IMG/VR virus record: IMGVR_UViG_3300005526_000002
Span: 1 to 51,247 of that record
Strand: one strand, 5' to 3'
From: a virus
Length of the DNA: 51,247 nt
The notes below the pieces were generated by a model. That model did no database searches and was not told the DNA's origin. It was given only the letters and a program-made list of their open reading frames with translations. Position numbers and translations under genes: made by a program. The stretch's first letter is position 1. Every line of letters begins with the position of its first letter. This document shows positions 29,694-51,247 of the stretch, one piece after another.

Positions 29694-30944
29694 TTATGCG
29701 GTACGAATGCAGAGAGATACGTTTGTTGCCGCACCCGTAACAAACAGAGACAGGAAAGATACTGTAACCCAAGTTCCAGATAACGGAAACCCGCCCGGTC
29801 CTACTGGTGAGTTTCCACCATTAGGGTCTAACGCATAGGTACCAATATCGCCAATACCCGGTACCGTACTTGTAGCAGCGTCCCAAGCCGGGTCTGCACC
29901 CGCACCATTTGTTTTTAAAAATTGACCAGATGTACCGGGTCCGAGAGCAACCCAAGCACTAGCGTTGCGGTAAATGATGCTACCTTGCGTAGCACCGAAC
30001 AACGCATCCAAGTTAGCAGACGTTACCGCAATTGAAGTGTTTGCCCACGATGGGTTAGCAGCGGCACCGTTTGATTGCAATATCTGCCCCGCCGTACCCG
30101 GTGCGAGCACAGTCCATACTGTAGCATTACGATATAAAATATCGCCTTGCGTGCTGCCAATGCTGTCAAGTGAGAAACCAGTAGTGCTTGTCCATGATGG
30201 ATTGGCACCAGCACCACCAGAAGTTAAAAACTGTCCGTTTGTTCCCGGTGCGAGCACAGTCCATACTGTAGCATTACGATATAAAATATCGCCTTGTGTG
30301 CTGCCAAAAGTATCTAGATTAGTTGAATTACTCGCCCATGCCGGGTTTGCCGCTGCGCCGCCAGAAGTTAAAATCTGTCCTGCTGATCCCGGTGCAAGCA
30401 CTTGCCATGCCGATGCACCACGATAAATGATATCGCCTTGTGTGGTACCAAGCACATCCAGAAATTCGCTAATTTGGCTATAAGATGTACCCGGCAATGG
30501 ATCAACAGGCCACATACCAGCGGACTTAGGACCGTAGATACCGCCGGGTGCGTCTAGCCTAAGATAGAAATCGCCATTTTGTCCGATAGCGTCATCAGGA
30601 ACACCATCACCAGCAAAAATAGTAAGGAAGTTACCACCGGTAGTGCTATTTGCTCCCAAGAATGCGAGAAACAAAGCGGGTGTCGCGGGCAAATAAGTGG
30701 TGGTTACGCTATCCCAAAGATACAACGCACCTTCAGCCGCGTAATCCGGTGTCGCCGTTCTAAACCATGCTGTGGTATCTTGATTAACTATCGGCGGCGT
30801 ACCCGATACTACCAATGGACTTAAGATACCCGCGCGAGCCAACGCAGCCACGACGAAATCAAGACCGGGAATTTCTCCCTTCTCAACGCCGCCGGTAACT
30901 GCGCGCCAAAGACCTACAAAATCTGTTGCAAAATTATATGCCAT
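29694..30944 (-). CDS. Tail fibre with four repeated GDIxYR/W...APGTxGQ modules
   Basis: 416 residues. The N-terminal attachment-like domain (about 1-95) is shared with the gene at 29389-29682. Then come NGDFYLRLDAPGGIYGP and four copies of a roughly 49-residue module with TQGDI(I/L)YR, W, LAPGT and GQ(I/F)L, typical of trimeric phage fibres. The C-terminus (GGFPLSGTWVTVSFLSLF) is a distinct cap. Two modules are nearly identical in DNA (30097-30149 and 30244-30296), a recent duplication. Confidence 0.75.
   Translation of the reverse strand: MAYNFATDFVGLWRAVTGGVEKGEIPGLDFVVAALARAGILSPLVVSGTPPIVNQDTTAWFRTATPDYAAEGALYLWDSVTTTYLPATPALFLAFLGANSTTGGNFLTIFAGDGVPDDAIGQNGDFYLRLDAPGGIYGPKSAGMWPVDPLPGTSYSQISEFLDVLGTTQGDIIYRGASAWQVLAPGSAGQILTSGGAAANPAWASNSTNLDTFGSTQGDILYRNATVWTVLAPGTNGQFLTSGGAGANPSWTSTTGFSLDSIGSTQGDILYRNATVWTVLAPGTAGQILQSNGAAANPSWANTSIAVTSANLDALFGATQGSIIYRNASAWVALGPGTSGQFLKTNGAGADPAWDAATSTVPGIGDIGTYALDPNGGNSPVGPGGFPLSGTWVTVSFLSLFVTGAATNVSLCIRTA
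30097..30296. repeat. Recent tandem duplication inside the fibre gene
   Basis: A 53-base stretch is identical at 30097-30149 and 30244-30296, 147 bases (49 codons) apart. It encodes the DILYRNATVWTVLAPGT part of the fibre module. Neighbouring modules are more diverged, so this pair arose recently and can expand or contract by recombination. Confidence 0.75.
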
Positions 30945-33234: not shown

Positions 33235-33325
33235 TGTAAATCCTCGCTGCTTTCTTCTTTGCGGCTTTGGCTGGCATTCCCTTGCGTTCAAACTTATCGC
33301 GCATGGCTTCGTATTTGGCTGGCAT
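33188..33325 (-). CDS. Small basic protein (45 aa)
   Basis: Starts MPAKYEAMRDKFERKGMP and continues KAAKKKAARIYNATRKKG. This Lys/Arg-rich pattern with IYN-x-TRK is a recurring small phage protein of unknown role that I have seen in many genomes. It overlaps the LamG-like gene by 47 bases in another frame, and its ATG follows the stop of the secreted protein upstream. Confidence 0.6.
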   Translation of the reverse strand: MPAKYEAMRDKFERKGMPAKAAKKKAARIYNATRKKGQKPVTRKG

Positions 33326-33834
33326 TATTTGTACCCCACATTTACCGATAACGCGGAAGCAGTTGCAGCAGTTGTGTCAGTGGTAGCATACCCGCTTGTA
33401 ACGCAAATTGATATGCCGGTCGCAAACGGCATCCCGCCAGCCCAAGTATCAATAAACCCTGCCGTTGGGAGTATCGCCATTTGGTAGACCAAATTAGTCG
33501 CAGAGTTGCATCCGTTGAAACCAGATGCAGCGTCATACATGCGCAAATAATTTGTCGTGGCTGAATTATTGGTAACCGAAATTTTGTAAACCTTACCCGC
33601 ACCATTCTTGATGTTAGCGTGGTTATCAGATGCAGTTGGTTGAACAAAATAAACAATTGGGACCGGCGTGATGCACAAAACGCCGGTTAAGTCTTGGGCT
33701 GCTGGAAAAATTATGCCAGCAGTCAAACTTTGGGAACCACAATCTGCTACGGCTTGAACTCCGGTAACGCCTGACTGTGCGAATGCTGGTGCGCTGATTA
33801 ACAGCAGCGTTGTGATGATTAAACGTTTGAGCAT
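33325..33834 (-). CDS. Secreted protein A (mosaic of two paralogues)
   Basis: About 169 residues with a clear Sec signal peptide (basic MLKR, hydrophobic core, cleavage after AFA-Q). The first 55 residues align with the secreted protein at 37929-38684 (GSQSLTAG; QDLTGVLC). The C-terminal part aligns with that at 36991-37932 (FVQPTASDNHANIKNGAGKV; SGFNGCNSATNLVYQ). It is therefore a chimera of two neighbours. I chose the third possible start because it matches the paralogue; GTG 33843 and ATG 33840 are alternatives. Confidence 0.7.
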   Translation of the reverse strand: MLKRLIITTLLLISAPAFAQSGVTGVQAVADCGSQSLTAGIIFPAAQDLTGVLCITPVPIVYFVQPTASDNHANIKNGAGKVYKISVTNNSATTNYLRMYDAASGFNGCNSATNLVYQMAILPTAGFIDTWAGGMPFATGISICVTSGYATTDTTAATASALSVNVGYK

Positions 33835-33839
33835 GACCA

Positions 33840-34238
33840 TCACCCGTAGTAGCTGATATTAAGAACAGCACTAGCAGTCTGTTCGATGAACTTGATTGCA
33901 GACAGATCAACAGCGGCGTAATTCAGTTCTTCACCGATACCCAAGAGCATCCCGAGACTTGAAGTAGGATTGACACCATCATCGCGCCAGCGAACGGCAT
34001 GGCTTTCAACCACCACAACTGCCCTGACGGCACCGCCCGGCACCGTCAACCCGGTGGCTGCGGCTAAACTCGTAATTTGCTGGTAGCCCATTGGAGTGCC
34101 CATAATACCACCGTCTGTAAAATCTTTAAGTTGATCCACCGTGATTTTGACGTTAGCCGCACTTTGCACGCCTGCGAGTAATTCAGCACCGGTTAAAGCA
34201 CTCGCTGCTGGCATCCCCGAAATTTTGGTGTCGGCCAT
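33840..34238 (-). CDS. Fibre/appendage protein (132 aa)
   Basis: The N-terminal motif ADTKISGMPAASALTGAELL followed by GVQSAANVKITVDQL is the standard beginning of many phage tail-fibre and head-fibre proteins. The C-terminus is a small beta domain (MLLGIGEELNYAAVDLSAI). No signal peptide, unlike its neighbours. Confidence 0.65.
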   Translation of the reverse strand: MADTKISGMPAASALTGAELLAGVQSAANVKITVDQLKDFTDGGIMGTPMGYQQITSLAAATGLTVPGGAVRAVVVVESHAVRWRDDGVNPTSSLGMLLGIGEELNYAAVDLSAIKFIEQTASAVLNISYYG

Positions 34239-34243
34239 AGCTA

Positions 34244-34399
34244 CTATTCCAGTACAATCTTGGAGCCGGTTTCTTGCAGAATGTAGCCATCGTCTTCTTT
34301 TAAGATAAAGCTAGCAGCAACAACGATAGCACCGCGCAACCGCCTGCGTGGTGTATTTAGTGGCGATACACCCCATCCTATGCGTGCTTGGTTTGTCAA
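34244..34399 (-). CDS. Small hypothetical protein (51 aa), TTG start
   Basis: TTG overlaps the stop of the upstream gene (TTGA), so translation is probably coupled. The product contains RIGWGVSPLNTPRRRLRGA and ends GYILQETGSKIVLE, resembling the short 'QDGGYILLEDG' end pieces found in phage appendage proteins. Confidence 0.5.
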   Translation of the reverse strand: MTNQARIGWGVSPLNTPRRRLRGAIVVAASFILKEDDGYILQETGSKIVLE

Positions 34400-34821
34400 T
34401 TTTGCCTCTGTTCTTTACGGTTCAATTCGATTGAAGTTGATACCGCGCTAACTTGTTCTTCCAGTCTGTTGAAACCGGCATGCATTTCCGATTTCAAATC
34501 ATCATGAGCATCACGAACATCACGCTTAAATTCATCAGTAGCCTTATGGTAGGCATCCCGACGCATGTAGGTTTCGGCCGCAATAGCCCGAAATTCCATT
34601 GACTTCAACTCAAGCTGATGTATGCGGTCGCCGACATTAGCGATAACGTTACCTATGTTGGTTGACTGCATTTCCAAACGCGCCAGTAAATCATTACGCA
34701 CGGCTGTTAGTCCTTCATGGTGAGAAGTTGCCCCACCCCATACAAGTTTGAATAGCACAATACCCAAGCCCAAAGTTTGTACTGCTATCCCTGCCAGCAT
34801 TCCTATTTCGGCCGAAGTCAC
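34396..34821 (-). CDS. Membrane-anchored coiled-coil protein (141 aa)
   Basis: GTG start overlaps the stop of the secreted gene upstream (GTGA) with GGAG eight bases away. An N-terminal transmembrane helix (IGMLAGIAVQTLGLGIVLF) is followed by an extended heptad region to the end. Topology resembles an inner-membrane spanin or an envelope tether; there is no further evidence. Confidence 0.6.
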   Translation of the reverse strand: MTSAEIGMLAGIAVQTLGLGIVLFKLVWGGATSHHEGLTAVRNDLLARLEMQSTNIGNVIANVGDRIHQLELKSMEFRAIAAETYMRRDAYHKATDEFKRDVRDAHDDLKSEMHAGFNRLEEQVSAVSTSIELNRKEQRQN

Positions 34822-36014
34822 CCTGCTTTCTCCAACCAAGCTGGAAAATTGTCATTCAAGTGTTCTGGCATATCGCGCCAAAGAAGCCAACCACCGAGAA
34901 TGCAAGCGCTAGAACTTCCAAAAGTTATGCCAGTGTTATCGCCGAGATCGAGTGAACTGGTTGCGCGTAACGTACCGCCGCCTGTGAAAGTTATATCGCG
35001 AAAAGCGCAGTAAGTACAGGTAAGAGCCGCCGCCGACGATATCGTTTGAACGTTTGCATCTACACCGGATTGGATAATAACTTGATTTGTCGCATCCCCG
35101 GTTACATTCAAAGCGGTTTGGATATTACTGGTAATGCCTGCCGTCGTTATTTTATAAAGATTTGGCGCGGTAATGGTTAACGTCTTGATTGTATGCCCGT
35201 TAGCGCTACTGTTAGAAACACCAAGACCGGAGGTACGTGAACCTATTGACACAATATTCGCAGTTTGCGTGCCTAAGTTAAATGATTGCGTACCAGTTCC
35301 AGTTAACGCTATCGTTGAACCACCAGCATTAAAAGTTAAATTAGTTCCAACCGATGTACTAAATTGAGGACCGCCTGTACTATTGGACACGGTAAAAGTG
35401 CCATTACCCAAATTAATAGTGCGAGTGCCGGTCCCGCTGAAGCCAATCCCGCCAGACCCGGTAGCAGTAATGCTATCGTTATTGACGCTAAAATCCAGCG
35501 TCCCAGTGAATGCCCCAGCATCAAATGACGTTAACGTTATCGTGCCACCGCCAAAACTGGGAATAACCGTGCCGCCTTTTGAATTGGCGTCTAGAGTAGC
35601 GCCATCAGTCGAAACCGGTACACTCGATCCACCAGACCCGCAAGTTGCGGTCGAACTTGCTGCCCAATTTGCAGTATTAGTCGCGGTCCATATGCCGCCT
35701 GCCATGCAAGCAGTACCGCCAAAACCAGCACCGCCAAATGTGGTACCAGTTAATTCAACATGCGTGGTATCAACAACTGTGCTGATAGTTGTTGTGACGT
35801 TGCATCCTGTAATGCCGGTGATGCCTGTTACGATGACCGATGTACCAGCAACAATACCGCTGCCGACAATAGCGGGAGTAATTGTCAAACGACAAACTCC
35901 GCCCGTACCAGAGATAGCGCCAGTTACGCTGTAAGGGTTCCAAAAACGCGAAGCTGCGTTCGTGCAAGTAAGCGAGGCGAATAAAAACAAAAATGCGACT
36001 ATGACCCGCTTCAT
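34818..36014 (-). CDS. Secreted beta-rich protein B with conserved C-terminal tag
   Basis: 398 residues from ATG 36014 (GGAGAAGG upstream). It has a Sec signal peptide (basic MKR, hydrophobic core, cleavage near NAA). The body is Thr/Gly/Ser-rich repetitive beta structure with NLGNGTFTVSNSTG-like units, as in adhesin beta-solenoids. The last about 26 residues (ILGGWLLWRDMPEHLNDNFP onward) are nearly identical to the end of secreted protein C. ATGA-coupled upstream. Confidence 0.7.
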   Translation of the reverse strand: MKRVIVAFLFLFASLTCTNAASRFWNPYSVTGAISGTGGVCRLTITPAIVGSGIVAGTSVIVTGITGITGCNVTTTISTVVDTTHVELTGTTFGGAGFGGTACMAGGIWTATNTANWAASSTATCGSGGSSVPVSTDGATLDANSKGGTVIPSFGGGTITLTSFDAGAFTGTLDFSVNNDSITATGSGGIGFSGTGTRTINLGNGTFTVSNSTGGPQFSTSVGTNLTFNAGGSTIALTGTGTQSFNLGTQTANIVSIGSRTSGLGVSNSSANGHTIKTLTITAPNLYKITTAGITSNIQTALNVTGDATNQVIIQSGVDANVQTISSAAALTCTYCAFRDITFTGGGTLRATSSLDLGDNTGITFGSSSACILGGWLLWRDMPEHLNDNFPAWLEKAG

Positions 36015-36994
36015 ATTACCTTCTCCAACCAAGCCGGAAAATTATCATTCAAATGTTCCGGCATGTCACGCCATAGAAGCCAACCGCCAAGAATGCACCC
36101 ACCGCTACCACCAAATGCAGCAGGACCGTTGAAAGATATATTGGTGTTGTTTTGTAGATTAAATGAATTGTTGGCGGTAAAAGAACCTGCGCCTGTAAAA
36201 GTTATGGTGCGAATGGCGCACCAAGTACACGTACCGGCAACCCCAGAAGCTATAGTTGACACGCCGCCTGCCACGTTACTCGTAACTAGGTATATTGGTT
36301 GAGAACTGGTACCTACCCAATTAAAAGCATTTGTTATCGTGAGAGTAGCACCATTAGAAACCTGAAAAATATTAGGTGCTGCTATGTTTAGCGTAGCAAT
36401 CGTATGGGACGCTGTACTGTCCTTAACGTTTGATGCTCCGGTTCGTGCACTTAGCGTAACAACATTTACCGCCTTAGCACCAAAATCAAAAGTCTGCGAA
36501 CCAACTCCTGAAGGAGCAAAAACAATTGTTGAACTGTTCGCATTAAACGTAAGTCCGGTAACGGTTGCCATATTCCATGTAGTAGAACCTAGACCGGTCA
36601 GCGTCCATGTGCCGTTACCGAGATTAATCGTTCGTGTTCCGGCCCCGGTAAAACTGATACCAGTAGCAGCGGAAACTGTTACGTTTTTATTGTTTGTTGC
36701 CCAATCCAACGTACCAGTGAATGCCCCTGCAATAATTTCACCAATGTTAAGATCGACATTGTTCGTAACAGTACCGCCGCCAGAGCTACCATCGAAGGTA
36801 GCAACGTCACCAGCATTTTTGGGCACACCGCCTGTGGCTGCGCAAGCAGTACCACCGCCAGATGTAGATTTCCAATGTGCGGCATCAGTAGAATTATCCC
36901 ATGTACCGGTACCACTCACCCAAAAGCAAGTTGCAGCTTCAACCGAAGTTGCAACCAAGCAAAGCAATAATGCTATGACAAGCCGCAGCATCAT
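36011..36994 (-). CDS. Secreted beta-rich protein C with conserved C-terminal tag
   Basis: 327 residues with a signal peptide (MMLR, hydrophobic core, cleavage near VEA-A). Repetitive beta segments (ISFTGAGTRTINLGNGTWTL) parallel those of secreted protein B, and both end in GGWLLWRDMPEHLNDNFP-AWLEK. The pair is a tandem gene duplication with diverged bodies. A shared exported C-terminal tag suggests a common anchor or sorting partner. Confidence 0.7.
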   Translation of the reverse strand: MMLRLVIALLLCLVATSVEAATCFWVSGTGTWDNSTDAAHWKSTSGGGTACAATGGVPKNAGDVATFDGSSGGGTVTNNVDLNIGEIIAGAFTGTLDWATNNKNVTVSAATGISFTGAGTRTINLGNGTWTLTGLGSTTWNMATVTGLTFNANSSTIVFAPSGVGSQTFDFGAKAVNVVTLSARTGASNVKDSTASHTIATLNIAAPNIFQVSNGATLTITNAFNWVGTSSQPIYLVTSNVAGGVSTIASGVAGTCTWCAIRTITFTGAGSFTANNSFNLQNNTNISFNGPAAFGGSGGCILGGWLLWRDMPEHLNDNFPAWLEKVI

Positions 36995-37932
36995 TTATAT
37001 CCTATGTTCACAATCATCGCTGAAGCGGTAGCGTTAGTGGTATCGTTAGTAGCATAGCCGCCTGTTACGCAGATAGATATGCCGGTGGAGAAGGCCATTC
37101 CAGTAGGCCAAAAATCCAGAATACCAGCACCATTGGTGGAGAAGGGAATGGCGTTCTGATAGACAAGATTAGTTGCGGAATTACACCCATTGAAGCCGGA
37201 TGCAGCATTGTAAAGACGAACATATTGAACAGTCGTCTGCGTAGCATTGCCGGTAATGGAAATCTTGTAAACCTGACCTGCACCGTTCTTGATATTGGCG
37301 TGGTTGTCTGATGCAGTTGGCTGCACGTTGTAAACCGACAAACCGCCTGCGGTCACCGGCAATTCGTTAACTGCTAATTGACCAGACGCACCACCGCTAA
37401 CGGCCGTACCACCAACCGCCGTGATGTTGGTCGCGGTACCCTGTGTTCCAATAGGTGGCTGGTTTGACCCGGCTGATGCGTTAAGTGTAACGCTTGCTGT
37501 GCCGCTAGAAAAAGCAGTCATGCGCGAGCGAACAAGCTGGTAACCGGCAGATTGACAAGTCCATGTGCCGTTAGCGCTACCGCCAGTAACGATGATACCA
37601 GTTGATGGTACCACACACGGAATGGAAACGAAGTTGGTACCGTCTACCGAGCCTTCAAAGACGAAAGTCATACCAGAACCGGTACCGCGAACGTCGATAC
37701 CGGTCGAACCGGAACCTTGTGAGTTAACGGTAACGCTAGTAGTACCAGTGACGTTCGTTGGACCGGAAATTACATCGTTTGGTGGTGCGTTAATCGTAAT
37801 CTTCTGACCATTTGCGCTGATCTGACCGGAACTGTTAACAGCTTGACTGTGAACACCAACCGTTGTTGCAATTAGCAATGGCGCGAGAATAAATCCTAGC
37901 AGAGTGTACTGTGCTATACGTAATTTATTCAT
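36991..37932 (-). CDS. Secreted protein D
   Basis: 313 residues from ATG 37932, coupled by ATGA to the gene upstream. The N-terminus has a long signal peptide or anchor (MNKLRIAQYTLLGFILAPLL). The middle holds a carbohydrate-module-like beta region (FVFEGSVDGTNFVSIPC). The C-terminal 110 residues match secreted protein A (YNVQPTASDNHANIKNGAGQ; NGCNSATNLVYQ) with conserved cysteines. Confidence 0.7.
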   Translation of the reverse strand: MNKLRIAQYTLLGFILAPLLIATTVGVHSQAVNSSGQISANGQKITINAPPNDVISGPTNVTGTTSVTVNSQGSGSTGIDVRGTGSGMTFVFEGSVDGTNFVSIPCVVPSTGIIVTGGSANGTWTCQSAGYQLVRSRMTAFSSGTASVTLNASAGSNQPPIGTQGTATNITAVGGTAVSGGASGQLAVNELPVTAGGLSVYNVQPTASDNHANIKNGAGQVYKISITGNATQTTVQYVRLYNAASGFNGCNSATNLVYQNAIPFSTNGAGILDFWPTGMAFSTGISICVTGGYATNDTTNATASAMIVNIGYK

Positions 37933-38684
37933 TGCACGGACCCTGAAATAAAGGCGGTAATGACACCAGTAGTTTTTGTAAAGCATGTTGTTGCTGAAGT
38001 CACTACGGCTGTGATGCCTGTAGAAAATACACCCGGCGGTCCCGGTGCGTAGTTGAGAGAAGCAAACCCATTAGCTGATAGCGGTACACATGCTAACGGA
38101 GTAACCGCGCCATCAACTGGTGCGGAAGTCGCATTTATTAGCAACAAAAATCCATTTGTTGATGTGAGATTTGTTGCGTACACCGCATAAGCGTTGCCCG
38201 CGCCAGCTTTTAGAACGTGGCTAGCTTCAGCCGCAGCGGAAACAACCGGCGTGATGCCAATAGCTGACGAAGACGATGGAGTGATGTTTGCGGTCACCGT
38301 GCCGGAAACAACCCAAGGCGAAGTACCTTGGTTGACCGTGCCGATAACTTTTGTAGTTTCAGCATTCAACGTGGTCGTTGTGAGTATGGGTGTCATGGCT
38401 GCGATACCCTGCACCGTCACCACACCTGTCGCAGCCGTTCCCGCCGTTCCCTGACCCGCAACAACCCAAGGCGTGGTACCCTGCGTTACCGAACCTCCGC
38501 CGCCACCACTAGCTACGCAAAGCGTTCCAGTAAGGTCTTGCGTTACTGGATAGGTAACGCCAGCAGTCAATGTTTGCGCGCCGCAAGTTGCTACTGCCTT
38601 GGCGAAAGCACCAGCGGTCCCGGTTTGCGCGTATGCGGGACCGCTAGCTAGCAGCAACGCAATGATGAAAAGTTTTTTCAACAT
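37929..38684 (-). CDS. Secreted protein E
   Basis: 251 residues. The signal peptide (MLKK, hydrophobic core, cleavage after AYA-Q) and first 55 residues parallel secreted protein A (CGAQTLTAGVTYPVTQDL). A central Gly/Thr-rich section (GTTPWVVAGQGT; QGTSPWVVSGTV) repeats a short motif. The C-terminal domain (LKAGAGNAYAVYATNLTS) is a distant version of the D-type C-terminal fold. Exported; target unknown. Confidence 0.7.
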   Translation of the reverse strand: MLKKLFIIALLLASGPAYAQTGTAGAFAKAVATCGAQTLTAGVTYPVTQDLTGTLCVASGGGGGSVTQGTTPWVVAGQGTAGTAATGVVTVQGIAAMTPILTTTTLNAETTKVIGTVNQGTSPWVVSGTVTANITPSSSSAIGITPVVSAAAEASHVLKAGAGNAYAVYATNLTSTNGFLLLINATSAPVDGAVTPLACVPLSANGFASLNYAPGPPGVFSTGITAVVTSATTCFTKTTGVITAFISGSVQ

Positions 38685-38687
38685 ACT

Positions 38688-39146
38688 TCAGCTTCCCGAA
38701 TAAAGGACGTAAACAACGTCATTAGTACCGAGCGTGATAGTAACTGGATTGGTAGCCACAGTGACAGTGGAAAACGAAATTTGCGCACCTTGCTGGTAAA
38801 TCGCAAAACCGGCACCCTGCGCAATCATCACGCCAGCGCTACCGACTTGATTTATTCCGAAAGACAAACTAGCAAATCCATGCGTTAAGCTCGCCAGAGC
38901 CAAAAGTTGTGCTGTAGTTCTAGCGCCTGCCGTGTTTAGCGTGAGAATACCGGATGTGTTGCCACCACTCGCACCAGCAATAATCGCGACGTTAGTCCCG
39001 GTTGCTACGTTCGCGACTGTTGCAGCGCTGTTGTAAGTGGCAGGAATTTCGACGCCTTCAACCGAACGAATTTGCGACAACCCGGATTTGACCGCTGCCG
39101 CCATCCGCGAGTTTGGGAATAACCCAAAGATATCGACGCCAGCCAT
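38688..39146 (-). CDS. Hypothetical appendage protein (152 aa)
   Basis: Starts MAGVDIFGLFPNSRMAAAV and continues as a Thr/Ala/Gly-rich beta protein ending in NDVVYVLYSGS. No signal peptide. It lies between the secreted proteins and a short beta protein, and is probably a virion component. Confidence 0.5.
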   Translation of the reverse strand: MAGVDIFGLFPNSRMAAAVKSGLSQIRSVEGVEIPATYNSAATVANVATGTNVAIIAGASGGNTSGILTLNTAGARTTAQLLALASLTHGFASLSFGINQVGSAGVMIAQGAGFAIYQQGAQISFSTVTVATNPVTITLGTNDVVYVLYSGS

Positions 39147-39157
39147 TTGCTACACTC

Positions 39158-39463
39158 CTAGCGATATCCAAGGTAGATCAATTCGATCAACCCGGTAAGC
39201 TCGGTAACTCCTGATAGTGTCAAACGATACCAGCCAGCAGGCAGACGAATTTCAGCGTATCCATCAGCGGACAAAGCCGTCAAAACAGTAATGGCAAGCT
39301 GTCCACCTGACAAAACACGCTGCAACGTTGCGGTGCCCCATGCCGTAGAATGCACTGTCAAGCCATACGCACCAGCGTCAAGCCTGAAATCAACAGGAGT
39401 TGCACTGATAGCATTCCATTGCTGAAAACTTACAGGTCGGTCATTGCGTGCTGCGATAGCCAT
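39158..39463 (-). CDS. Hypothetical structural protein (101 aa)
   Basis: Beta-sandwich-like sequence (FRLDAGAYGLTVHSTAWGTA; QRVLSGGQLAITVLT; LPAGWYRLTLSG), the pattern of small phage capsid-decoration or appendage proteins. No enzymatic motif. Confidence 0.55.
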   Translation of the reverse strand: MAIAARNDRPVSFQQWNAISATPVDFRLDAGAYGLTVHSTAWGTATLQRVLSGGQLAITVLTALSADGYAEIRLPAGWYRLTLSGVTELTGLIELIYLGYR

Positions 39464-39489
39464 TTAACCGGTCCTCTCAATGCCAGCCA

Positions 39490-40626
39490 TTAACCACTCC
39501 CCTTATTCGCACTGACCAAGGAAAAAGTTTGACTGCTAACTGCCCATCGCCGTGATAGAGCGACATATCCGCAATACTCGCGGAAACGCCCATCCATATG
39601 CCAAGAGCGCACAATACGACCCGCAACCAATGTCCCGATGAACGAAGTAACGGGTATCCACAGTGGGAACGAGTAGAAGCCCATGGTGATAAAAGCCATA
39701 AGAACAGGCCATTCACGGTCCCCTGTTCTTGACAACGCAAACGCGAAAATGGTCGCTGGCAGCAACGCCGCAATCCCAAATTCGTATGCGAGTTGTAGCA
39801 TGTCATTGTGAACAAATTCCGGATAAAGCACCTTACCGTTATCATCATATATCTGCGAAGCGAATGAACCAACTCCATTACCAAAGAAAGAAAGTTCATT
39901 CCAAGCGATAGTCCATATTTTTAAACGCACTACATCTGACGGTGAAGTAAACCACATAGCTCCCGCGCCGAGCATGATTACAGGCACTAGCAACCAAGTT
40001 CGACGCACAAACAAAGCAGTTACGCCAATCATAAGCGCCAGCCCTGCCCCGCGCGATTGCGATAACAAGATACCGGGTATTAGCGGCAACGCCAGATAAA
40101 ACATGCGTTCGGTCAGCAACGCGACAAACAATAGCGCCAGAACTCCACCTTGCGCCACGGTATTAAAGTAAATTCCCGGTATACCGCCGATATTGTTTAT
40201 AGGTAGCGGTTGATAACCGAATGCTTGAACCATGGCGATAATTGAAGACACAATACTACCAACCGCAAGACCGGCATAAGCCTGTCTAAGCGATGGGAGT
40301 GTAGAGCCTAGCCAGAAAGTCAAAGCCATGATGCAGATCAACCACAAACCATAGACACCCCCATGAACGTCCGTGTTCCATGTGAGGCTGGCGGCAGCAT
40401 ACGCAACCAGAACAAGCCCAATCCAGTGAAAGGGGGTAAGCGTGCCCTGCCGCCACAAAGTGAACGGCAGGACCGCAGATAGTACGGCGTATTGTGTTGC
40501 TATGGCTGCCCCGGTCCAGCCGGGTATGTAGCAAAGCGACACGATAGCGCCGAGCGCTAGCACGTTCCGATTACCAAGAACCAATCGGGAAGGCCAGCAC
40601 GGTAGCTCCACCTTGTGCCCCGCCAT
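39490..40626 (-). CDS. O-antigen polymerase/ligase-like membrane protein
   Basis: About 378 residues from ATG 40626; starts near 40563 (GTG, just after the upstream stop) are possible. It has roughly ten transmembrane helices. The family signature is near residue 260-300: NGVGSFASQIYDDNG, then PEFVHNDMLQLAYEFGIAAL, typical of the Wzy/WaaL/RfaL superfamily with its periplasmic loop. Such proteins polymerise O-antigen or ligate it to lipid A-core in the inner membrane. In a phage this suggests receptor alteration or superinfection exclusion; here it sits among secreted-protein genes. Confidence 0.75.
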   Translation of the reverse strand: MAGHKVELPCWPSRLVLGNRNVLALGAIVSLCYIPGWTGAAIATQYAVLSAVLPFTLWRQGTLTPFHWIGLVLVAYAAASLTWNTDVHGGVYGLWLICIMALTFWLGSTLPSLRQAYAGLAVGSIVSSIIAMVQAFGYQPLPINNIGGIPGIYFNTVAQGGVLALLFVALLTERMFYLALPLIPGILLSQSRGAGLALMIGVTALFVRRTWLLVPVIMLGAGAMWFTSPSDVVRLKIWTIAWNELSFFGNGVGSFASQIYDDNGKVLYPEFVHNDMLQLAYEFGIAALLPATIFAFALSRTGDREWPVLMAFITMGFYSFPLWIPVTSFIGTLVAGRIVRSWHMDGRFREYCGYVALSRRWAVSSQTFSLVSANKGSG

Positions 40627-41125
40627 ATCCGCAAAGACGTGCGGACGAATAGACGGGATAGCGGGTTGGTGACGCTGTAGCACGCATGTTGAGCGGTGCG
40701 CTGATGGACGCATTGGCCGGTGGTGCGCCGGAAGTCGGACACGCCACACCCCAAGCAAGGGCGGTAGACGATGCCACGGTCATCGCAGATGACAGCGTAA
40801 CACTTGTGGTGCTGGTAGCAGTAACCGTAGTGCCAGCGGTAATGCCGGTACCGGAGATTACGCAACCAACGCAAGGCGGGTAAGTTGGCGTTGCCGTCAA
40901 CGTGAGGGCAGTAGACGAACCGGAAGTGCTGCCGACACCGGTTGAACCTCGCGTGTAGAGTTGAGCATTGCCTTCGGCGGGGAGGATTTCGAGCGGACCA
41001 TTGCCAAAATCAACCCAAGCATTATTGCTGATCGTGTACGGCTGCTTCACCGCAGTCTGAGCCAGCGCTACCCCCGGCAGAACCGCCAGCAACGCGACCA
41101 AAAGAAATTTCTTAAGCATGTTCAT
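40571..41125 (-). CDS. Secreted protein F
   Basis: 184 residues from ATG 41125 (AAGGA upstream). Signal peptide with MNMLKKF, a hydrophobic core and cleavage near ALA-Q. The mature part is Thr/Ser/Gly-rich with PTYPPCVGCVISGTGIT and conserved cysteine pairs. Its 3' end overlaps the O-antigen polymerase-like frame by 56 bases if that gene starts at 40626. Confidence 0.65.
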   Translation of the reverse strand: MNMLKKFLLVALLAVLPGVALAQTAVKQPYTISNNAWVDFGNGPLEILPAEGNAQLYTRGSTGVGSTSGSSTALTLTATPTYPPCVGCVISGTGITAGTTVTATSTTSVTLSSAMTVASSTALAWGVACPTSGAPPANASISAPLNMRATASPTRYPVYSSARLCGYGGAQGGATVLAFPIGSW

Positions 41126-41148: not shown

Positions 41149-41880
41149 TTAGTCGGCTACGAAGCCGCCGCTGCCACGGAAATGACGGGTACGGTTGAAG
41201 CTGACCTTGGCAATGAAGCCTGCGGCCGTTGTGTCGTTGCCAATTTCCTCGCCGCTTGAAAGAACGCGGAGCGGAAGTGTTGACGTGGTGGCGAGTGTTG
41301 CGTTGAGCGAAACACCGGAAGTGCCGAAACGCGCGGCTGCCTGACCGGCGTTTTCCTGTACGTCTGCGCCTGACATGAGTTGCAGATTGAATGCAGGACT
41401 TGGGACGGTTGGCATTGTGATGTAGCACTCAACATCCGGGTCGGTTTCGACGTAAACCCATGCTTCGGTCGAAGCCGGGATGTACTGGAAACCGTTCTTC
41501 GCCATGTAAAGCGTGATCGGGCCAAAACCGACAACGACGCCTGCAATGACGTTGGTGGTGTCACCAGCTACCCAACGAATAACGTTCGGAGCCATCGCAG
41601 TATTACCAAGACCGGAACCGCCACCGTTTCCAATAACAACCGAAGTTGCCGAAGGTGAAGCAATGTTTTCCGGCAAATCCGCGCCGCCTTGCGTGCCAAC
41701 TCCTGCACTGGCGAGCACAACGATATCACCACGAAAAGTAGCAACGCCGTTTTGCGAAGGAACGTGAAAGATTTTAACGGATGCGTGCATTGGATCACCG
41801 CTGCCAAGATTGACCGGCACCAGCCCGCAGTAATGTCGGAAACCTCCACCGAGAGTTCCCGCGTTGACGATGTTAACCAT
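41149..41880 (-). CDS. Virion structural protein (capsid decoration candidate)
   Basis: 243 residues from ATG 41880 (GAGGG nine bases upstream). Beta-rich, with KIFHVPSQNGVATFRGDIVV, APNVIRWVAGDTTNVIAGVV, STEAWVYVETDPDVECYITM and FNLQLMSG, the 'V-x-V-x-x-DPD' pattern of phage capsid-associated proteins. First gene of the long minus-strand appendage operon, directly behind a divergent promoter gap. Confidence 0.6.
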   Translation of the reverse strand: MVNIVNAGTLGGGFRHYCGLVPVNLGSGDPMHASVKIFHVPSQNGVATFRGDIVVLASAGVGTQGGADLPENIASPSATSVVIGNGGGSGLGNTAMAPNVIRWVAGDTTNVIAGVVVGFGPITLYMAKNGFQYIPASTEAWVYVETDPDVECYITMPTVPSPAFNLQLMSGADVQENAGQAAARFGTSGVSLNATLATTSTLPLRVLSSGEEIGNDTTAAGFIAKVSFNRTRHFRGSGGFVAD

Positions 41881-41981: not shown

Positions 41982-42368
41982 GTGAAAAAGTCACAAAAAA
42001 CATACCTTTACCGGCATTTTGATGCTTCTGGCGTCTTAATTTACGTAGGAGCAACTTGGAACCCGGCATTACGTGACCGCGTACACGCAAAAGAAAGTCA
42101 GTGGTATCGCTTAGTCGCGTCCACCACTTTAGAAGTTTATCCTAATGTCGAAGCAGCGGCAGAAGCTGAAATTATCGCTATCGAAAAAGAACACCCTTTA
42201 TTCAATAAACGTGAAGGTGGTGTTGGGTTACGAAAAGATCGTGAACAGACGACAGTATTATCTTTTCGCATAAGTATCACAGAAGCCGATGCGCTTGACA
42301 AAGTAGCAAAACGATTACGCATTAATCGTACTGATATGCTAAGACGTTTACTTAGAAACCTAAAATAA
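41982..42368 (+). CDS. GIY-YIG nuclease domain fused to ribbon-helix-helix domain
   Basis: 128 residues. Residues 7-78 follow the GIY-YIG fold: TYLYRHFD, LIYVGATWNP, Arg31/Arg33, and AIEKEHPLFN with Glu70 and Asn75. Residues about 90-126 (TTVLSFRISITEADALDKVA, then RINRTDMLRRLL) look like an RHH DNA-binding domain. The fusion could be a site-specific endonuclease or an autoregulated homing-type enzyme. GTG start; expressed from the promoter at 41922. Confidence 0.75.
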   Translation: MKKSQKTYLYRHFDASGVLIYVGATWNPALRDRVHAKESQWYRLVASTTLEVYPNVEAAAEAEIIAIEKEHPLFNKREGGVGLRKDREQTTVLSFRISITEADALDKVAKRLRINRTDMLRRLLRNLK

Positions 42369-51172: not shown

Positions 51173-51247
51173 ATGTTTAGACTTCAAGCGTTACAAGTTG
51201 GCGGTTATTGGTCAACGGTTCTGGAACTTGCTTCGGAACGTGAAGCA
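51173..51247 (+). CDS. Small hypothetical protein, 5' part of origin-spanning gene
   Basis: ATG 51173, preceded by GGGAGACAGGCAA, opens the 44-codon gene that continues at position 61 of the window (bases 1-60 repeat 51188-51247). Control elements GGTACC (51130-51135) and AGCGTTATCG (51145-51154) lie directly upstream. First gene of the early plus-strand operon; no recognised domain. Confidence 0.65.
   Translation, partial: MFRLQALQVGGYWSTVLELASEREA
51188..51247. repeat. Terminal redundancy, copy 2
   Basis: Exact copy of positions 1-60; see the first entry. It marks where the circular molecule was opened. Confidence 0.9.

Follow-up and report, generated by a model that had tools for sequence, protein, structure and literature searches.

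A late cassette of putatively exported, cysteine-paired proteins in a soil-type tailed phage, tentatively read as adhesins and depolymerases directed at envelope glycans

Tail fibres of tailed phages are normally assembled in the cytoplasm. Why, then, do six genes in the late region of a soil-type tailed phage begin with apparent Sec signal peptides? The genes, named A to F, are located on the minus strand of IMG/VR record IMGVR_UViG_3300005526_000002, of which the whole stretch of 51,247 bases was analysed and is called the window. Using a home-made gene caller, they were placed at 40571–41125 (A, 184 amino acids, aa), 37929–38684 (B, 251 aa), 36991–37932 (C, 313 aa), 36011–36994 (D, 327 aa), 34818–36014 (E, 398 aa) and 33325–33840 (F, 169–171 aa); the higher coordinate was taken as the start, for F either 33840 or 33834. 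A sequence-only reading had proposed six genes with these stops in one late operon, and all six were confirmed, as open reading frames in a single late minus-strand run. They are proposed to be part of a modular late cassette of exported, disulfide-folded adhesins and depolymerases acting on envelope or matrix glycans, an interpretation held tentatively, at a little under even confidence.

Signal peptides were scored with a home-made rule set, not SignalP. The Sec signal peptides seen in the sequence-only reading were recovered on each of the six starts, with a basic n-region, a hydrophobic core and a small-x-small site (rule scores 8.1–11.1). Cleavage was predicted at MNMLKKFLLVALLAVLPGVALA|QT in A (mature start QTAV), MLKKLFIIALLLASGPAYA|QT in B and MLKRLIITTLLLISAPAFA|QS in F; the signal of C is the weakest of the six. 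After shuffling of the first 39 residues of each protein, its own score was reached in 0/1000 shuffles for five genes and in 17/1000 for C. As controls, core non-cassette late genes of relatives scored 7 or more in 4/284 cases; T7 genes were called in 3/52 (all small) and lambda genes in 5/57, namely lom, Rz, Rz1, bor and rexB, which are membrane or exported proteins. Among five Escherichia coli control sequences entered by hand, OmpA, MalE, DsbA and LamB scored 9.3–10.1, PhoA only 6.6. The predicted first mature residue was Gln in 46 of 89 signal-peptide-bearing (SP) representatives from all loci, compared with 3.5% Gln in mature sequence, the scorer giving a small bonus for A, Q, D or E at this position. 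Twin-arginine (Tat-like) N-termini, RRDFL and RRALIGG, were read by eye in two relatives, at L074:12640-15051 (803 aa) and L071:14467-15594 (a 375-aa GH26-like phage protein).

The signals were maintained while their sequences drifted. All 32 short gene A homologues scored as signal peptides despite widely differing n- and h-regions; in their alignment the mature +1 Q is invariant and the −1 A nearly so, with the A|Q site aligned in nearly all. Mature SP proteins contain 1.63 cysteines (Cys) per 100 aa versus 0.38 in non-SP late proteins, about four times as many, and the count is even in 28/33 SP versus 22/85 non-SP late proteins. Among 82 non-redundant SP proteins having any Cys, 69 have an even number (p ~1e-10 against one half, for proteins that are not fully independent). 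In gene A, alignment columns 149/152 carry Cys together in 23/23 cases and columns 156/165 in 6/6, with no singletons, and columns 211/261 are invariant, giving one invariant pair plus one or two variable pairs. B, C and F have four mature Cys each. Signal peptides, conserved cleavage sites and disulfide-type Cys pairing are strongly indicated by these comparisons. Taken together, the conserved signals, the Cys enrichment and the even, paired Cys make export into an oxidising compartment very likely, and export by the infected cell, as first suggested from the window alone, is well supported by the conserved but drifting signals, the paired Cys and the Tat-like starts of two relatives. Were the hydrophobic N-termini virion or membrane anchors and not Sec signals, the cytoplasmic assembly usual for fibres would be kept, and some phage membrane proteins did score as signals in the controls; conserved small-x-A|Q sites, gain and loss of Cys in pairs and an enrichment limited to SP proteins are a misfit with anchors, which are thus very improbable.

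The six window proteins gave no significant match to PHROGs or Pfam, including fibre and spike families and enzyme domains. A set of 61 cassette proteins was compared with both databases. Pfam matches comprised Sortilin/BNR, pectate-lyase-like, Peptidase_S74, phage Collar, collagen, GDSL lipase, GH26 and others, and PHROGs matches comprised tail fibre, tail spike and virion structural families. Behind signal peptides, SP proteins of relatives matched Peptidase_S74, phage Collar, Pect-lyase_RHGA_epim, Laminin_G_3, GDSL lipase and GH26. The gene A domain recurs as the N-terminal domain of cassette proteins of 325–810 aa, of which one has a pectate-lyase-like segment and the majority a scored signal. 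In the PDB, gene A weakly matched a capsid decoration protein (E 0.018); this match, with strong composition bias, was not used. One 943-aa protein (L064) is a homologue of GH74 xyloglucanases over the whole catalytic region (E 2e-42 to the known structure 6p2m); by eye, the first catalytic Asp is kept and the second aligns to Trp, the Asp roles being those we take GH74 enzymes to have. The cassette could also consist of auxiliary genes for exported carbohydrate-active enzymes, degrading extracellular or plant-derived polymers to gain nutrients or to free virions from matrix. In favour of this, relatives have GH74, GH26 and GDSL-esterase domains preceded by Sec or Tat-like signals. It is nevertheless improbable, given that the six window proteins show no enzyme domain, that few SP proteins in the set can be recognised as enzymes and that, as read by eye, this GH74 copy aligns Trp to the second catalytic Asp.

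D and E are paralogues related along most of their length (46% identity), whereas C and F share their C-terminal ~110 aa, and the C-terminal domain of F also occurs in SP proteins from further phage contigs. Caulobacter phage C1 encodes, between capsid and tail genes, a signal-less protein, gp119, to which the middle domain of C is related. Homology to F leads to contigs with homologous runs of SP genes; the terminase match of these contigs, where tested, is none or remote. C and D, both with signals, are likewise found side by side in contigs for which a terminase comparison gave no match or was not made. D and E both end in the tag WLLWRDMPEHLNDNFPAWLEK. A tag of the form '[WFY][LV]LxRD[LM]...NDN[FST]Px[WF]L' was also observed at C-termini in L001, L006/L130, L128 (two), L129 and L040, across different families (D/E type, GH74-like, GDSL, lectin), and all but one carrier score as SP. 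It is possibly a sorting or anchoring tag; it was not found in deposited phages, and plasmids gave only a chance-level match.

Searching for the same gene set in related phages returned SP cassettes in IMG/VR relatives. The position was defined as the slot between g243 and the p78 gene, and 38 rows were built on g243 (41149–41880, minus strand, 243 aa), a conserved protein with no family match that is encoded directly upstream of the cassette in SP-type and fibre-type relatives. Gene A is present in 32/38 rows and follows g243 directly in all SP-type relatives. At a stricter threshold, 31 of these 32 rows have at least one SP call in the slot, the exception being L081 (gene A scores 6.7). The remaining 6/38 rows, without gene A and without an SP gene in the slot, form one side of a branch in 96% of bootstrap trees; five have a BppU-like gene and long 'MNQITxIDV' signal-less fibres, the sixth (L063) long signal-less proteins only. 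The slot tree is unrooted, and the swap is counted as a single exchange. L064 encodes a 503-aa SP protein, two domains of which recur in signal-less proteins of the SP-less clade at 32–45% identity. In L128, SP genes stand beside a signal-less fibre-like gene, and the idea that SP and fibre cassettes are always mutually exclusive was dropped on account of this locus and the single tree event.

One earlier argument, that a signal peptide speaks against a tail fibre, is not supported by these data: SP proteins of relatives carry tail-collar, endosialidase-chaperone, pectate-lyase-type and lectin domains, domains of one of them recur in signal-less proteins of the fibre slot, and in the sister clade the slot is filled by long signal-less proteins. 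It is a serious, if lesser, possibility that the SP proteins are receptor-binding fibres or spikes which would be exported, oxidised in the periplasm and joined at lysis to virions assembled in the cytoplasm, with gene A as adaptor. The replacement of A and the SP genes by signal-less fibres or long proteins in the six-locus clade, the domains shared across the swap, and the Collar and S74 domains behind signal peptides all fit such virion adhesins, and the combination of A domain and beta-helix resembles a tailspike with an anchor domain. However, the swap is one event on the tree, and SP-type genomes keep signal-less fibre-like genes (window 29694–30944; L128). Up to nine different SP proteins per genome were counted, with no obvious shared docking domain by eye, and a role as virion fibres is excluded for the membrane-type genes of the cassette (Wzy_C-like, possible beta-barrels). 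The corresponding two-compartment assembly, by which this phage group would make fibres or spikes as Sec/Tat-exported, periplasm-oxidised proteins that dock on virions only at lysis, is conceivable but rather unlikely; no description of such a route for tailed phages was found in the literature searched. The window gene at 29694–30944 encodes a signal-less 416-aa protein (p416-type) that contains 'GDILYRNATVWTVLAPGTxGQ' repeats and has relatives in SP-type and fibre-type genomes alike; it is a candidate for an ordinary tail fibre.

A neighbour of A at 39490–40563 (minus strand) encodes an O-antigen polymerase/ligase-like (Wzy_C) membrane protein with an uncertain GTG start, about six or more transmembrane segments and no cassette-type signal peptide. 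This assignment, made before from the sequence alone, was recovered in the window, albeit as a weak match below the cut-off (PF04932, 20.2 bits against 31.7); the homologue in L083 passes the cut-off with 37.5 bits. A Wzy_C-like gene lies directly behind A in eight genomes, that is, the window and seven other loci (2–31 bases behind A in those seven), and its fixed place beside A supports the link to the envelope that had been suggested for the six genes. The receptor masking, adhesion or decoy action proposed along with that link would be one reading among several.

According to the tentatively preferred reading, a cassette of exported proteins directed at glycans, each protein would pass the host Sec translocon, be cleaved by signal peptidase, mostly at A|Q, and gain disulfide bonds in the periplasm. 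The modules are of the kinds found in phage tail fibres, tail spikes and depolymerases (in relatives lectin, beta-helix, collar, endosialidase-chaperone, GH74, GH26 and esterase), to which some genomes add the O-antigen-polymerase/ligase-like membrane protein. Late in infection, the proteins of the window phage may bind or modify envelope and matrix glycans of the infected cell, so that receptors would be altered or hidden both ahead of lysis and during it, and may be set free together with virions. We infer Sec export, oxidative folding and glycan binding or cutting from sequence comparisons. An envelope or matrix target is favoured because the O-antigen gene is of membrane type and because the SP proteins are diverse and have no docking part obviously in common. 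Several points weigh against this reading. The number of mature Cys is odd in D (5) and E (7), and since the window six lack a curated family match, relatives are the source for what is said of their function. From the periplasm, a protein would reach the cell surface only through lysis or some further step. Fibre-chaperone and collar domains are found more typically in components of the virion, and the fibre domains together with the slot exchange favour virion docking.

Tailspike and tail-fibre depolymerases of tailed phages share pectate-lyase-like, Peptidase_S74, Collar and lectin domains with the cassette. The known ones are generally made without a signal peptide, whereas cassette proteins begin with Sec or Tat-like signals and in most cases have an even number of Cys. 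Lambda lom, like the cassette genes, is a signal-bearing late-operon gene, located between the tail fibre genes J and orf-401, and was scored as SP; it is annotated as a single outer-membrane protein, in contrast to as many as nine different exported proteins in one genome here, several of which have domains of fibres, spikes or enzymes. Phage genes that bear signals and lie near fibre genes (lambda lom) are already known, as are exported endolysins (PMC6116005). Signal-peptide endolysins, e.g. Lys44 of phage fOg44 (PMC6116005), share with the cassette the Sec export of a phage protein during infection, Lys44 being a lysis enzyme and the cassette a proposed adhesin/depolymerase set. Nixviridae phages of Porphyromonas gingivalis have Q-rule signal peptides with Gln at the mature N-terminus, as in the cassette, and in the portion of that publication considered here their signal-bearing genes are left unexplained (PMC10367356); their host belongs to another phylum, and, relative to that portion, the fibre-slot swap and the disulfide analysis are found only in the present work. 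Structural proteins of Agrobacterium phage Milano are disulfide-rich as well, with bonds in capsid, neck, collar and tail proteins in a paper from which the term 'signal peptide' is absent (PMC10491603), whereas Cys enrichment is here confined to SP proteins; because of phage Milano, disulfides alone are no proof of export. No description of an exported, disulfide-rich fibre/depolymerase cassette was found in the open-access literature searched, which is not proof of absence. If the proposal holds, late development would draw on host secretion and disulfide machinery, whether for remodelling the envelope of the dying cell or for maturing the phage's own adhesins, and host Dsb, Sec and signal peptidase functions would be direct determinants of phage fitness. 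The finding, expression and testing of phage adhesins and depolymerases would change. Exported and ordinary fibre cassettes can be compared in a natural setting through the slot swap.

The cassette genes overlap by 4 bases at B/C, C/D, D/E and E/p141. Non-SP genes are interspersed on the same strand: p101 (39158–39463, 101 aa), conserved in many SP-type genomes; p152 (38688–39146), whose N-terminus MAGVDxxxxFPNSxMA is common to SP-type and fibre-type genomes; p141 (34396–34821), with one hydrophobic segment; and p132 (33840–34238). No relationship emerged when profiles were compared between gene A and g243 or between p101 and gene C. In relatives, SP proteins of 226–250 aa with mature starts like ADLTP/ADMPVK were observed (L048/L049, L084, L085, L129:9813-10565), possibly rhizobial-type outer-membrane beta-barrels; they had no Pfam match, and a plasmid search with a possible beta-barrel protein returned nothing.

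The window carries the same 60 bases at both ends (1–60 and 51188–51247), so the genome is probably complete, ~51,187 bp assembled as a circle. Bacterial genomes were scanned with gene A and with an SP fibre-like protein; no relative was found and thus no host was identified. Among 50,697 deposited phages there was no near DNA relative of the window and no protein match to A or B, and the terminase gave distant matches only, with ~31% identity or less among the matches listed. The terminase is common to 29 IMG/VR loci at 63–88% identity. Helicase, DNA polymerase, exonuclease and primase/helicase-like proteins are encoded on one strand; the other codes for a terminase, for head proteins and for a transglycosylase-type protein of 1238 aa. 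A small plus-strand gene (41982–42368), located immediately upstream of g243, reads like a GIY-YIG endonuclease.
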